From positions 1 through 40,597 of IMG/VR virus record IMGVR_UViG_3300035698_016543: 40,597 nucleotides of DNA, one strand, 5' to 3'. The notes beneath the pieces are model-generated. The model saw nothing but the letters and a program-made list of their open reading frames with translations. It was not told the origin of the DNA and ran no database searches. The position numbers were made by a program, and so were the translations under genes. Below are positions 18,184 through 33,979 of this stretch, in pieces. The DNA comes from a virus. Each line of letters starts with the position of its first letter. Position 1 is the first letter of the stretch.

Positions 18184-18494
18184 TAATACCTCCTATTATT
18201 TTGAAGGAAATTTTTTAAGGGAGAACAATCGGAAAGAGTTCTTTTTGGTGGAGGGGGGGCGAAAACTACCCCTTCTTGGCATGAAGTATCTCTATCCTAT
18301 CACTTCCCTATTTCTATAATTGCAGATGGCAGGGAATAGCCATCAAATAAATGATGGTTCTTGTAAAAAGGTGACTGTAGGGATGTCACCAGTCCATAGA
18401 TAGTTGAAGTATCTTTATCTATTACTTTCCCAAAGGAAGAACAAGCAAATAAAGTCTTTGATCCCCTGCCATAATAATATCAAGGTGGAGAGGG

Positions 18495-18511
18495 GTGGGA
18501 TTTTCACCCAC
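18495..18511 (-). ncRNA. tRNA T-arm-like hairpin in the second repeat unit
   Basis: GTGGG-TGAAAAT-CCCAC is a 5-bp stem with a 7-nt loop. U at loop position 1, A at position 5 and U at position 7 match the T-loop pattern. A short CCTATGCTAAAGG hairpin with a 7-nt loop lies upstream like an anticodon arm, but there is no complete cloverleaf. Consistent with the tRNA-like parts of YrlA-type Y RNAs. Confidence 0.4.
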
Positions 18512-18568
18512 ATCACACCTTTAGCATAGGAAGTAACCATACTCTATTACATCCCCTAAAGGAGAACA

Positions 18569-18614
18569 GGCGAGTAAGGTACATATGTGCTCTACTATTT
18601 GAGCTACCCTCACC
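18569..18614 (-). ncRNA. Bulged hairpin with tRNA D-arm-like tip
   Basis: Leftward, GGTGAG (18614-18609) pairs with CTCGCC (18574-18569) and GGTA (18608-18605) pairs with TACC (18581-18578), leaving a 3-nt bulge (TTA) on the 3' strand. The tip GCTC-AAATAGTA-GAGC copies a tRNA D-arm (compare GCTCAGTTGGTAGAGC) but lacks the GG dinucleotide. A bulged stem with a tRNA-like tip fits a Ro60-bound RNA. Confidence 0.45.
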
Positions 18615-18789
18615 ATTGTAAAATAGCAAAGGGAGAACAGACGAAAGAGGATAGTTTTCTCCAAATAGAAGTAGCCTCTCTCAGACACTTCCCTTGATAA
18701 TAACTTTATATATCTCTCCCGAGATCTCAGAGATCTGGAAGGTGGTGTCATTGATAACTATCTACGTAAGCATTATCTATTAAGAAACC

Positions 18790-20076: not shown

Positions 20077-20418
20077 CTAAACCATACCAGGTAATGCAGA
20101 ATTAGTTTTTAAAGAAGGTGCAACTATTGTATCATGAGGAAATTTCCAATATCCCCAACCATCTTCTATACCGCATACTGCAGATAGAATTATCTCAAAA
20201 GATGGATATCCAACTGAAGTTTTATCTCCAAGAGAAATAAGATATTCCCTATTCTGGCAAAGAAACTTATTTAATAGAATAGCATTATTAACTGAATTTC
20301 TTCCCATAATCATAGCTTTCTGAAAAGATAAGTTATGCTTCTTAGATAATTGAGTAGCTCTAATAATAGATAATCTGTCTATCGCACTAGAAACAGAACT
20401 GTTTTCTTTTTTATTCAT
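20077..20418 (-). CDS. Hypothetical protein, first gene of the leftward accessory operon
   Basis: 113 aa, ATG with AGGAGG ten bases upstream and a consensus promoter about 30-60 bases before. N-terminal helices ('AIDRLSIIRATQLSKKHNLSFQKAMIMGRNSVNNAILLNKFL') may form a helix-turn-helix-like unit, followed by a Gly/Pro/Trp-rich tail. No family recognised. Confidence 0.6.
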   Translation of the reverse strand: MNKKENSSVSSAIDRLSIIRATQLSKKHNLSFQKAMIMGRNSVNNAILLNKFLCQNREYLISLGDKTSVGYPSFEIILSAVCGIEDGWGYWKFPHDTIVAPSLKTNSALPGMV

Positions 20419-20477: not shown

Positions 20478-20522
20478 GTGGGTGTTTTTATCCCCTAATA
20501 ATTAGAGATAGGATAGTCTATA

Positions 20523-20551
20523 TTGATATTAGAGAAAAGAAATATTAAAAT
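20523..20551 (+). promoter_or_regulatory. Possible rightward promoter for the structured RNA
   Basis: TTGATA (20523-20528), 17-bp spacer, TAAAAT (20546-20551). It is weaker than the other promoters here but correctly spaced, and it points into the structured RNA beginning near 20625. Confidence 0.4.
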
Positions 20552-20624
20552 GGAAAAAGAATATCATAAATAAATACTATTCTACAATTCTTATATTTTC
20601 CTTTCCCAGAGAGAAGAAAAAAAG

Positions 20625-21035
20625 GGTTTTGATCGGGGGTAGTAGCATTACCCCGCTAAAGCGGTGTAATGTGAACGTAAGATGACTGAAGAGGATTTGC
20701 ATAAGCAAATCCGGGGTAGAGTCGCTTACAGCCGAGTCCTAAGAGACTTTGTATGAACAAAGTCGGGGTAACCCCCGAATTCACTCGCTAGACTTTGCGT
20801 GAGCAAAGTTGATACGGTGAAGAAAACGATACGTGAGGTAATTTACAGATGCGGATTTTGTGCGGGGGGTGCAAGACCCAAAAGGCATAGTCCGAACTGA
20901 CCTGAATAATGGATAAAGATTAATGTATATAAGTTGATATGTATATTGTATAATTGCTTTCGTGTAGCAAGCGTTCGCTTTTGGGCTCACTACTACTTTT
21001 CTGCTACTCAGAAAAGTATTTGCTACACTGATATG
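20625..21035 (+). ncRNA. Large multi-branched structured RNA candidate
   Basis: About 400 nt, clearly richer in GC than its surroundings and without a credible gene. A closing helix TCGGGGGT (20633-20640)/ACCCCCGA (20771-20778) encloses: a 12-bp stem-loop at 20645-20672 (one mismatch); GTAAG/CTTAC and GACT/AGTC helices carrying GGATTTGC-ATAA-GCAAATCC (20693-20712); and GACTTTGT-ATGA-ACAAAGTC (20745-20764). Next comes TTCAC/GTGAA holding GACTTTGC-GTGA-GCAAAGTT (20791-20810). A last three-way unit has GTGTAGCAA (20962-20970)/TTGCTACAC (21020-21028) around a 10-bp hairpin (20994-21018). A-rich loops and a GNRA loop favour the plus strand. It resembles GOLLD or ROOL-type ornate phage RNAs in style; class unproven. 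Confidence 0.65.
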
Positions 21036-21078: not shown

Positions 21079-21106
21079 TTTATAGCATATTATTAGAGAT
21101 TGTCAA
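21079..21106 (-). promoter_or_regulatory. Leftward promoter into the structured RNA region
   Basis: Read leftward: TTGACA (21106-21101), 16-bp spacer, TGCTATAAA (extended -10; TATAAA at 21084-21079). It would transcribe the strand opposite to the preferred RNA strand, so it may make an antisense RNA, or the RNA itself if my strand choice is wrong. Confidence 0.7.
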
Positions 21107-21221
21107 GTGGGGGTACTTTCTAAACACTTTACTAATCTACACTTAGAAGATTCATAAAAATGTAAAATTGAATTATTAATTTTTGTGAATCCAAAAAGAT
21201 TGCTACTTTCTACTACCCCTT

Positions 21222-21249
21222 GACAATCTATCTCAATTTGCTATAATAT
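21222..21249 (+). promoter_or_regulatory. Rightward operon promoter
   Basis: TTGACA, 16-bp spacer, TGCTATAAT (extended -10). It is followed by AAGTA repeats and the ribosome site of the 21294 gene. Perfect hexamers; a mirror partner of the leftward promoter 115 bp away. Confidence 0.85.
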
Positions 21250-21293: not shown

Positions 21294-21647
21294 ATGAGTA
21301 AGACGAAGTCTAGTGTTGTGAGTAAAGAAACAAAAACGATGGAGAATTGGGATTTAATAACAAGACCTTTCGTCAGGTTTGTAGCACAACTTGATGAACA
21401 TTTTGGCGAATCTGCTAAAATTCTAATAGCCAAATTATGTAACCTTATAGAGACCACTGGGTTGTCTGAATCTCAACAGGGAGCCTCAAAGAGTTTAGTG
21501 AAAACATTCGTCTATGATTTCCAGAAGGAGATAGAGAATATATTGTCCAGTAGACATAGGATGAATAAAGTAAGAGATTTGGTTATTAAATACTATGGTA
21601 AAGAAGATATAGAATATAGTGAAGAAGATGTAGAACATTGGTTTTAG
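21294..21647 (+). CDS. Hypothetical protein, first gene of the rightward operon
   Basis: 117 aa, ATG with GGAGGTAA six bases upstream. Hydrophilic and helical, with Ser/Lys-rich N-terminus and acidic C-terminus (YYGKEDIEYSEEDVEHWF). No domain recognised. Its position directly behind a strong promoter suggests early, high expression, perhaps a regulator or host-takeover protein. Confidence 0.65.
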   Translation: MSKTKSSVVSKETKTMENWDLITRPFVRFVAQLDEHFGESAKILIAKLCNLIETTGLSESQQGASKSLVKTFVYDFQKEIENILSSRHRMNKVRDLVIKYYGKEDIEYSEEDVEHWF

Positions 21648-21675: not shown

Positions 21676-21940
21676 GATGCTTATCCATATTATAGAGATT
21701 AATATTTGTCGGTTGTGAAGTGGTATTCTGACCTACGACGAACCTTGAAATAATAGGGCATAAGAATATCGTAGTTGTTGCAGACTAACTGCCAACAGAC
21801 ATAAGCATCGTTCCTGATAATAACCACTAACTATGTAGGGATGGTAGGAATGATGCTCACTATATTAAAAGATTCCTCCCTGGCGAAGGTCTAAATATTG
21901 TATACGGCAGATCGCCTCTAACAAACCACTAGCCAGGGAG
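21676..21940 (+). ncRNA. Structured leader with overlapping alternative stems
   Basis: Between two genes, three long stems occur in a row. Stem 1: GATGCTTAT (21676-21684)/ATAAGCATC (21801-21809), enclosing a GTTG-TT-GCAG-ACTAA-CTGC-CAAC hairpin. Stem 2: GCATCGTTCCT (21805-21815)/AGGAATGATGC (21846-21856), 11 bp. Stem 3: CTCCCTGGC (21876-21884)/GCCAGGGAG (21932-21940), perfect 9 bp. Stems 1 and 2 share GCATC, so they exclude each other, as in switches or attenuators. AAGGAGG follows 18 bases after stem 3. No riboswitch class was recognised. Confidence 0.6.
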
Positions 21941-21982
21941 ATCAAATATTAAAAAATAAGGAGGATATTTTTATTAAGTAAC

Positions 21983-23094: not shown

Positions 23095-23544
23095 ATGCTT
23101 AAATTTAGGGCGGTAATAACTAAAGATATCAAACTTAATTCTATAACATTATTCTTTACATTTAGGAGATTGTTGAAATTGATAACTGAACCAATGCATC
23201 CTGATGTAAAGATGCTTCTACTCCCTTGGATCAAAGAAGGGAATGAGCCAGATAGATTCACTCAATTCCAAGACAATAACGGAAAGAATATCTATGAAAA
23301 TGATATCTTAGATTGGGGAGAGAATATAGTCGGTCAGGTTTGTTATGGGCACAAAGGATGGGAATTCCGATATTGGCATGATGATCCAAGAAGTTTCAGT
23401 TTTGATGATAATGGGAATTACATTTATGATAAAGTAGAAGAAATTGTATCATTGGATGAAGTTTGTATGGGTGGTGCTATTATAGTATCTATTATAAGTA
23501 ATACACATAAAATTCCAGGAGATATGGCAAATAGTAATGATTAA
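23095..23544 (+). CDS. YopX-like protein
   Basis: 149 aa, ATG with AGGAGG six bases upstream. 'RFTQFQDNNGKNIYENDILDW' is the central YopX signature (QyTGlkDknGk.IyegDii), 'VGQVCYGHKGWEFRY' is the next strand, and 'AIIVSIISNTHKIP' is close to the closing 'vIGNiyenP'. YopX proteins are common in phages of Firmicutes; role unknown. The residues before the signature are unusual (hydrophobic 'ITLFFTFRRLL'). Confidence 0.8.
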   Translation: MLKFRAVITKDIKLNSITLFFTFRRLLKLITEPMHPDVKMLLLPWIKEGNEPDRFTQFQDNNGKNIYENDILDWGENIVGQVCYGHKGWEFRYWHDDPRSFSFDDNGNYIYDKVEEIVSLDEVCMGGAIIVSIISNTHKIPGDMANSND

Positions 23545-23968
23545 ATACAATATCTTTTCCTCAAAAATGCAAACTATAACTAACCCTTGTAATTGTGTAG
23601 GAATAATGGGAAAAGGGTTAGTCTTAGAATTCAAAAAGAGATTTCCTGATATGTTTAGAGATTATGTTCTGTTATGTAAGAATAAAGAAATAATAGTTGG
23701 TCATCCATATCTATATAAACTATCAACACCTTGGATTCTTAATTTTCCTACTAAAAATACATTAGCACCTTCACGTCTGTGGTATATTATAGATGGACTA
23801 CTATATCTAAAAAATATGTATAAAACGTGGGGAATTACATCTATTGCTATCCCTGCACTTGGATGTGGGTATGGTGGATTAGAATGGACGAAGATACAAC
23901 CTATTATGGATAAGTATTTAGAAGAATTAGATATTCCAGTAGAAATTTATGAACCAAGGGGTCATTAG
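23537..23968 (+). CDS. DarG-type macrodomain protein 1
   Basis: 143 aa, overlapping the YopX-like gene by 8 bases. 'TNPCNCVGIMGKGLVLEFKKRFPDMFRDYVLLCK' is the ADP-ribose-binding first loop (Asn, Met-Gly-Lys-Gly), 'WILNFPTKNTLAPSR' carries the Lys that acts in DarG de-ADP-ribosylation (K73 here), and 'SIAIPALGCGYGGLEW' is the phosphate loop. DarG antitoxins remove ADP-ribose from DNA modified by DarT. The protein is the macrodomain alone, without DarG's C-terminal toxin-binding part. A paralogue lies at 31240-31677. Confidence 0.88.
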   Translation: MIKYNIFSSKMQTITNPCNCVGIMGKGLVLEFKKRFPDMFRDYVLLCKNKEIIVGHPYLYKLSTPWILNFPTKNTLAPSRLWYIIDGLLYLKNMYKTWGITSIAIPALGCGYGGLEWTKIQPIMDKYLEELDIPVEIYEPRGH

Positions 23969-30814: not shown

Positions 30815-31243
30815 ATGGCGCATGATGATAGCGGTTTATTCATAGGTATTGAAATTAGAAATATAAAGAGGAATCTCTATATCTATTGTGAAATAGTAGA
30901 GTTGATGCTGGATTATAAGTACACTCTGGTAGTACATATGAGGAATTGGGATAAGTTGAAGAAACACAGACGTATCCTTTGGTGGAACGAGAATACTAAA
31001 AAGATGAAAGTAGAAGTTGATGTGGAAGGTAACACAGGCTACAAAATGATTAACCCTATAATAACAATTTCTTGGAATAATCATCCTAACCATGGGAATA
31101 GAATTGTATCAGAATATTGCTGGAGTGATGCTGGTATGTGCTGTCTGGATACAGAATTCTTAGAGTCACTAAGAGAAGGTCTAAGAAGAGAAGGAAAGGA
31201 ATTACATAAAGAAGCTGTAAAACTTTTCTGGGGGAAGAAATGA
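30815..31243 (+). CDS. Hypothetical protein (142 aa)
   Basis: ATG with AAGGAGA upstream; the end overlaps the second macrodomain start (ATGA). Beta-rich middle (YTLVVHMRNWDKLKKHRRIL). Coupling suggests a shared task with the macrodomain. Confidence 0.6.
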   Translation: MAHDDSGLFIGIEIRNIKRNLYIYCEIVELMLDYKYTLVVHMRNWDKLKKHRRILWWNENTKKMKVEVDVEGNTGYKMINPIITISWNNHPNHGNRIVSEYCWSDAGMCCLDTEFLESLREGLRREGKELHKEAVKLFWGKK

Positions 31244-31677
31244 TTCAATATATAAAGAATCGTAGTATCTTTTTATCAAAAGCACAGACTCTCACAAATC
31301 CTTGTAACTGCATAGGTATAATGGGCAAAGGGCTTGCTTATGAATTTAGGGTGCGATGGCCTGGTATGTTTAAAGACTATGTACGATTATGTAAAAATGG
31401 GAAAACGAAAGTAGGTTATCCATATTTATGCAAATTATCCATTCCTTGGATTCTTAATTTTCCTACTAAAAATACATTAGCCCCCTCACGTATACAATAC
31501 ATTATAGATGGACTAATCCATCTACAAAATTCATATAAAATATGGGGGATTACATCAATTGCTATTCCAGCTCTTGGATGTGGTTACGGTGGATTAGCAT
31601 GGGAAAAAGTAAGAGTTACTATGGTTGAGCATTTAGACAATTTAGATATTCCAGTAGAGATATATGAACCAAAATAA
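31240..31677 (+). CDS. DarG-type macrodomain protein 2
   Basis: 145 aa. Same architecture as the copy at 23537-23968: 'TNPCNCIGIMGKGLAYEFRVRWPGMFKDYVRLCK', 'WILNFPTKNTLAPSR' with the catalytic-type Lys, and 'SIAIPALGCGYGGLAW'. The two copies differ at many surface positions but share all ADP-ribose loop residues, suggesting retained function. Keeping two copies 7.7 kb apart suggests selection, for example against different ADP-ribosylation systems. Confidence 0.88.
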   Translation: MIQYIKNRSIFLSKAQTLTNPCNCIGIMGKGLAYEFRVRWPGMFKDYVRLCKNGKTKVGYPYLCKLSIPWILNFPTKNTLAPSRIQYIIDGLIHLQNSYKIWGITSIAIPALGCGYGGLAWEKVRVTMVEHLDNLDIPVEIYEPK

Positions 31678-32299: not shown

Positions 32300-32370
32300 C
32301 ATTTCACAACTTTCGTTAGAATAGCCTCCAGTCTATATCAGAATAACCTCCTACCACTGTACAGTATAAA
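32300..32370 (+). repeat. 71-bp twin element, copy 1
   Basis: Shares CATTTCACAACTTTCGTTAG, then TCCAGTCTA, then TG..CAGTATAAA with copy 2 at equal spacing, while the sequence between the boxes differs. Fixed spacing with variable filler suggests protein-binding boxes or a structured RNA. Confidence 0.6.
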
Positions 32371-32415
32371 CCTAAAATCATAGATTGGCTTTTAATATGG
32401 ATCTATGATTTCCCC

Positions 32416-32486
32416 CATTTCACAACTTTCGTTAGACCCCTGTCCAGTCTACATTTGGGTATGGTCGCCCCCGTGTGCAGTATAAA
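32416..32486 (+). repeat. 71-bp twin element, copy 2
   Basis: Same three conserved boxes as copy 1, starting exactly 116 bp later and of the same length; its filler is richer in G and C. Confidence 0.6.
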
Positions 32487-33406: not shown

Positions 33407-33838
33407 CTATATGTATATAGCTTCTAAAATATTAAAAGGTAATTTTATCATGAGTATTGAGTAGACGGGGCACACCGTGGCGAAAAGACGTTTCGACGCT
33501 TTTTCAAACGTCCCTAATCCGCTTCAGTCGCCTATCTCCGCCATTTGCCGTCGGCACGCCACATCGTCACATCGTCTATCCGTCATAGCGTCAATCGTCT
33601 ATTCATCGCACTCTCCACCATTCGCCGTCCAAACGTTGTATCGCTCATACGTCCATCTATCTTGATCATTACTACTTAAAAATTATTTATCTTCACTATC
33701 ATAATAATCAATACTATCCTACCCTACCCTACCCTACTCAAACGTCCAAACGTCACATCAGCATAGCAGCTTAACGACAAAACGTCACATCGCCAAAACG
33801 TCGGTGGTGGTGATATTGGGATTATAGCGTCATCCTGC

Positions 33839-33979
33839 TGATACCCTATTACCTGATCCCTATTACCTATTACCTGATACCCTATTACCTGATACTTGAT
33901 ACCCTATTACCTGATACTTGATACCCTATTACCTGATACCTGATACCCTATTACCTAATATCCTACCTAATATCCTACC
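33839..33979 (+). repeat. CTATTACCTGATAC tandem repeat array
   Basis: Seven CTATTACC units separated by TGATAC or TGATACTTGATACC, then TAATATCCTACC twice. Near-identical units point to recent slippage. Not a CRISPR: spacers are too short and themselves repeated. Confidence 0.75.

Follow-up and report, generated by a model that had tools for sequence, protein, structure and literature searches.

In the 40.6-kb virus record IMGVR_UViG_3300035698_016543, whose 40,597 nt are here called the window, the genes for terminase, portal and capsid occupy the minus strand of the left half, and the right half bears rightward genes. The candidate element described here is flanked by divergent operons, of which the leftward one begins with a gene at 20077–20418 (−) and the rightward one with a gene at 21294–21647 (+), and it is located near the minimum of the cumulative GC skew. 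The leftward operon, upstream of which the element sits, runs in the order 113-aa gene, RlaP, Ro60 and encodes an RlaP-family nucleotidyltransferase and a Ro60/TROVE-vWA protein. The element lies ~2.4 kb upstream of the Ro60 gene, with the RlaP and 113-aa genes in between.

An initial annotation of the window, made from the sequence alone, had described a large ornate RNA in a divergent promoter region of raised GC without a believable reading frame. The position between divergent operons is correct, but a third strong promoter, at 21106 (−) and directed through the element, had been omitted. GC indeed reaches 43.5% at 20600–20999 vs about 30–35% nearby, and the longest frame over the element is just a 69-aa GTG ORF on the minus strand. 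Judged by its sequence, 20633–20905 is without a credible coding frame. ARAGORN detected no tRNA or tmRNA genes in the whole window, and a tRNA/tmRNA identity of the element was rejected on this basis.

Architecture and conservation of the predicted fold

The well-supported core stops near 20905, so that the element spans 20633–20905, about 273–280 nt in total. Its predicted parts are the following, in + strand coordinates.

20633–20905, + (favoured): core of the candidate structured RNA (MFE fold, z −6.8, no Rfam match)
20633–20778, +: 5′ multibranch domain with HP0 and modules 1 and 2 inside (closing helix p 0.91; z −8.3)
20633–20640 / 20771–20778, +: 8-bp closing helix TCGGGGGT / ACCCCCGA (p 0.91)
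20645–20672, +: HP0, GCATTAC C CCGC-TAAA-GCGG T GTAATGT
20677–20729, +: module 1, outer helix GUAAG-A-UGACU / AGUCG-CUUAC with internal loop GAAGA / GGGGUAG, enclosing HP1 (p 0.99–1.00)
20693–20712, +: HP1, GGATTTGC-ATAA-GCAAATCC, loop AUAA (p ≥ 0.97)
20737–20770, +: module 2, AAGA - HP2 - GGGGUA (outer UCCU/GGGG helix weak, p 0.48)
20745–20764, +: HP2, GACTTTGT-ATGA-ACAAAGTC, loop AUGA (p 0.97)
20780–20821, +: module 3, UUCAC/GUGAA enclosing HP3 (p 0.93 and 0.99)
20791–20810, +: HP3, GACTTTGC-GTGA-GCAAAGTT, loop GUGA (p ≥ 0.97)
20836–20903, +: 3′ irregular hairpin domain, AGGU..CAG..CGGAU..UGUGC..GGGU-GCAAG-ACCC..GCAUA-GUCCG..CUG-ACCU (predicted fold)
20962–21028, strand unassigned: separate element, 9-bp GTGTAGCAA/TTGCTACAC closing a 10-bp hairpin at 20994–21018 (z −4.0)

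The helices named in the initial annotation, i.e. the 8-bp closing helix (p 0.91) and three 8-bp hairpins (p ≥ 0.97), thus occur in the sequence and are reproduced by the predicted fold. The repeated GGGGTA is there too, directly after HP1 (20713–20718) and HP2 (20765–20770). A three-way unit had also been assigned to the 3′ end; an element does exist there, at 20962–21028, but as a separate hairpin, split from the core by an AT-rich linker of about 55 nt and with direct repeats TGATATGTATA outside it. HP1 and HP2 have the context AAGA / GGGGUA in common, HP3 is a direct repeat of HP2 (85%), and all three hairpins conform to the motif UUUGY-RURA-RCAAA. The corresponding DNA pattern TTTGYNNNNRCAAA occurs in three copies in the element and once elsewhere in the 40.6 kb, with 0.15 expected.

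Folding of 20630–20910 (+, 281 nt) yields an MFE of −101.9 kcal/mol and a z of −6.8, and none of 150 dinucleotide shuffles folded to so low an energy; for the 5′ 151 nt (20630–20780) z is −8.3 (0/150 dinucleotide shuffles). In a scan of intergenic stretches, phage windows sampled every 900 nt served as background and had a mean z of −0.5 with an sd of 1.3. When HP1 and HP2 are swapped for dummy tetraloops, the remaining core still reaches z −3.5 (0/200 shuffles), which indicates a nested architecture that is more than a cluster of palindromes. Altogether, the predicted nested fold of 20633–20905 is real and highly non-random, and the folding statistics (z −6.8 to −8.3) lend good support to the earlier description of a large RNA with an elaborate fold.

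blastn against phages and plasmids, pattern scans and a covariance model turned up no homologue beyond one truncated copy, in the near-identical contig IMGVR_UViG_3300031227_007781, which breaks off inside module 2 (its position 1, window position 20738). Either strain variation or a break in the assembly at the hairpins could account for this end. The contig shares 112 nt with the element and differs from it at four places, all fold-compatible, without a double compensatory change and too few for covariation. Two of the differences are in the HP0 loop and one is an indel at the HP0 bulge, the HP0 stem being kept; the remaining one, C to T in the closing pair of HP1, turns G-C into G-U on the + strand and yields an A-C mismatch on the minus strand.

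In viral contigs, the exact pattern AAAAGGCATAGTCCGAAC retrieved no homologue and the exact pattern AAGGCATAGTCCGAAC three matches, all in unrelated sequence, and a scan with the hairpin-module pattern returned the known copy plus two matches, both without a covariance-model match. When applied to Ro60 phages, both to the loci and to the complete records, a covariance model of the element (R1) found no homologue. Searches for relatives of TerL and of the 113-aa and 117-aa genes led to the near-identical contig alone, or to nothing. An alignment of seven Ro60 proteins is too divergent as a search query; a Ro60 alignment run against 84,980 genomes retrieved just distant Ro60 proteins (30–33% identity), from three loci. 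The element is an orphan in the collections tested.

Strand, promoters and a possible role as DNA

The unpaired bases of the + fold are 47% A and 75% purine, to be compared with 46% A and 74% purine in E. coli RNase P RNA and 67–77% purine in 16S segments, whereas those of the minus fold are only 29% purine. Since 23 of 160 ordinary phage windows (~14%, both strands counted) likewise show an unpaired purine fraction of at least 0.75, this composition argument for the + strand is moderate. The + fold further contains seven G-U pairs vs three in the minus fold, and the 3′ domain folded alone has z −1.8 on + and 0.0 on minus. Energy alone leaves the strand unsettled, the strand difference beyond composition amounting to a z of only −1.0. 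On balance, we favour the + strand over the minus strand.

Two promoters bear on this point.

20523–20551, +: TTGATA-N17-TAAAAT, sole candidate promoter for a + RNA (10/12 consensus, at chance level)
21079–21106, minus: TTGACA-N16-TG.TATAAA, strong phage-type promoter directed leftwards through the element

The + candidate is the same in contig IMGVR_UViG_3300031227_007781; upstream of the element on + no promoter of the phage's own type was found, nor a clear terminator for the element on this strand. The phage-specific pattern CTTGACA-N16-TG.TATAAT describes four promoters, at ~12577 (−), ~20478 (−), ~21106 (−) and ~21219 (+). A motif ATTAGAGA (TCTCTAAT in promoter direction) is found in the spacers of two of these four and again at 20501 and 20528; it is perhaps an operator.

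The promoter at 21106 (−), one of these four, lies ~200 nt upstream of the element in the minus direction, and together with a minus-strand fold of z −5.5 it suggests a structured leader or a stand-alone RNA made from the minus strand, possibly controlling the operon of the 113-aa gene, RlaP and Ro60 by folding or attenuation. We nevertheless consider such a minus-strand RNA rather unlikely. A promoter of the same phage-specific type at about 20477 (−) belongs to the operon itself, no terminator was found at the element's end on the minus strand, and the 3′ domain is unfolded there. Furthermore, the unpaired bases of the minus fold are 71% pyrimidine, unlike those of RNase P RNA or 16S rRNA, and the HP1 change in the near-identical contig breaks a pair on the minus strand.

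Alternatively, the element might act as DNA, as a replication origin or an array of binding sites in which a dimeric protein would occupy the 20-bp palindromes and the RNA-like fold would be incidental. The three similar 8-4-8 palindromes, the strong fold on both strands and also with DNA folding parameters (z −5.8), the site between divergent operons near the cumulative GC skew minimum and the AT-rich flank with direct repeats are all consistent with this. Yet the outer nested helices are significant even without two of the palindromes, the three palindromes are irregularly spaced (52 and 46 bp), and asymmetric purine-rich internal loops and G-U pairs would be unexpected for DNA sites. The palindrome motif is moreover absent from the phage promoters, and a reading as promoter operators was rejected for the same reason. 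A role as DNA is therefore, in our view, unlikely.

The element probably functions as an RNA. Its more specific and, to us, likeliest reading as a stand-alone structured noncoding RNA of about 280–350 nt, encoded on the + strand at 20633–20905, has in our judgement an even chance of being right.

Comparison with known RNA families

Rfam returned no family at gathering threshold and, for the element, none at E ≤ 10, and the classes to be checked according to the initial annotation (GOLLD, ROOL, introns, tmRNA, RNase P) were likewise without a match at E ≤ 10. A targeted ROOL search of the window was empty, as it equally was for the ROOL control genomes.

ROOL and GOLLD are ornate phage or prophage RNAs that build multimeric, RNA-only cages (PMC12286853). 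The initial annotation had likened the element to them in size and style. The style agrees, since the element is likewise noncoding, phage-borne, elaborately folded in a nested manner, with A-rich junctions and without an obvious function. The size does not: the element measures about 280 nt as compared to 574 model positions for ROOL and over 800 nt for GOLLD. ROOL and GOLLD are also often, though not obligatorily, found near tRNA islands, whereas no tRNA genes occur in the window. With no Rfam match, too short a length, no tRNA island and no match to a conserved segment, membership in GOLLD or ROOL is not supported. The element is a real, orphan and highly structured feature of the phage, most likely a noncoding RNA of no catalogued family.

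That the element is a group I intron of degenerate or unusual form, or a related ribozyme, is very improbable. Near its 3′ end the element holds a segment like AAGGCAUAGUCC, and its 3′ AAGGCATAGTCC is similar to the J8/7-P7 strand in group I introns of bacteria. A protein with NUMOD3, which is typical of homing endonucleases, is likewise encoded by the phage. However, the Rfam model Intron_gpI (RF00028) did not hit the window at E ≤ 10 even though control genomes did match, the general Rfam scans were empty as well, no GACUA strand that could serve as P7 partner was seen nearby by eye, and flanking exons are missing, the neighbouring genes being divergent with the left gene on the other strand.

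Y RNA candidates of the phage and possible roles of the element

RlaP of jumbo phages has been predicted to put back nucleotides lost from RNA ends ahead of ligation, while TROVE proteins have been portrayed as platforms for RNA repair that have a tRNA-like partner (PMC7824862). In view of this RlaP/TROVE repair setting, a Y RNA was taken as the first hypothesis for the element. A Y RNA covariance model (R2) was derived from this phage together with two further Ro60 phages, with five pairs changed on both sides. Of the other Ro60 loci searched with it, most yielded Y RNA candidates (best E-values about 1e-6 to 0.04). In the window it points to the following.

18214–18310, minus: Y RNA (R2 46 bits)
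18328–18431, minus: permuted stem, possible fourth Y RNA (R2 9 bits, weak)
18479–18555, minus: Y RNA candidate (R2 12 bits), by eye inside a tRNA-like fold at 18484–18614 in the manner of YrlA
18626–18696, minus: Y RNA candidate (R2 15 bits)

By this model, the phage appears to have a Y RNA array of its own at 18214–18696, directly upstream of Ro60, with three, perhaps four candidates. A 76-aa ORF at 18521–18751 overlaps the array and is probably spurious. Other Ro60-bearing viral contigs carry Y RNA clusters beside Ro60 as well (L018:4652–4919, L004:5892–5976 and L019:6543–6993), three strong ones in L018 and five candidates in L019, and by eye tRNA-like folds apparently embed Y RNAs at about 5740–5870 in L004 and about 4520–4640 in L018.

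Within 20633–20905, R2 scores at most 5.9 bits even with filters off, and it did not recover the Y stem motif of Ro60 phages (GCGUAG..GGUUACUUC / CCGAUUGUUC) in the element. Like bacterial and phage Y RNAs of the YrlA type, the element is a noncoding candidate in the neighbourhood of a Ro60 gene, at about 2.4 kb from it; unlike them, it has no Ro60-binding motif and is about three times longer. Since the phage's Y RNAs are located at 18214–18696 and score 46, 15 and 12 bits, the element differs from them, and hardly any credence is left for a further, enlarged Y RNA of the phage Ro60, as its place upstream of the Ro60-encoding operon might have suggested.

As a stand-alone + strand RNA, the element would act in trans as a scaffold or bait. 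The recurrence of a single hairpin within the RNA suggests that one and the same partner would dock several times, and the copies could offer equivalent docking sites for one protein or, alternatively, make loop-receptor contacts inside the RNA. By its position, the RNA might serve the neighbouring RNA-repair module of RlaP, Ro60 and Y RNAs, for example as a decoy or platform while a host RNase attacks. A specific role in RNA repair or counter-defence, for which position is the argument, is doubtful, and quite unlikely in its most detailed form, an undescribed phage RNA family with a ~280-nt scaffold whose three UUUGY-RURA-RCAAA docking hairpins would serve as a bait or platform for RlaP, Ro60 and Y RNAs against host RNA-cleaving defences. 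The proximity of RlaP, Ro60 and the Y RNA array nonetheless provides a testable, positional hint at function in RNA repair or counter-defence. We regard the element as a solid candidate, short of a discovery. Should it be made as RNA, it would add a new family to the elaborately folded phage RNAs, a small class in which even the best known, GOLLD and ROOL, still lack a functional explanation.

Elsewhere in the window, further features were observed.

21131–21200: GATTCATAAAAAT / ATTTTTGTGAATC, a long palindrome rich in AT that lies between the divergent promoters 21106 and 21220; the stretch 21094–21243 has z −6.4 on +
21699–21953, +: second structured noncoding stretch, after the 117-aa gene, with a 10-bp AT-rich closing helix; z for 21690–21960 is −4.0 on + and −3.6 on minus, with no blastn match in phages and no Rfam match at E ≤ 10
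23537–23968 and 31240–31677, +: macro-domain protein gene and a second gene in which a 300-nt stretch of it is repeated at 76% identity
29001–29891, +: ARPP-1 domain protein
32300–32486: 71-nt direct repeat in two copies, located outside the annotated frames
33838–33967: 22-nt tandem array of the CCCTATTACCTGATACTTGATA type
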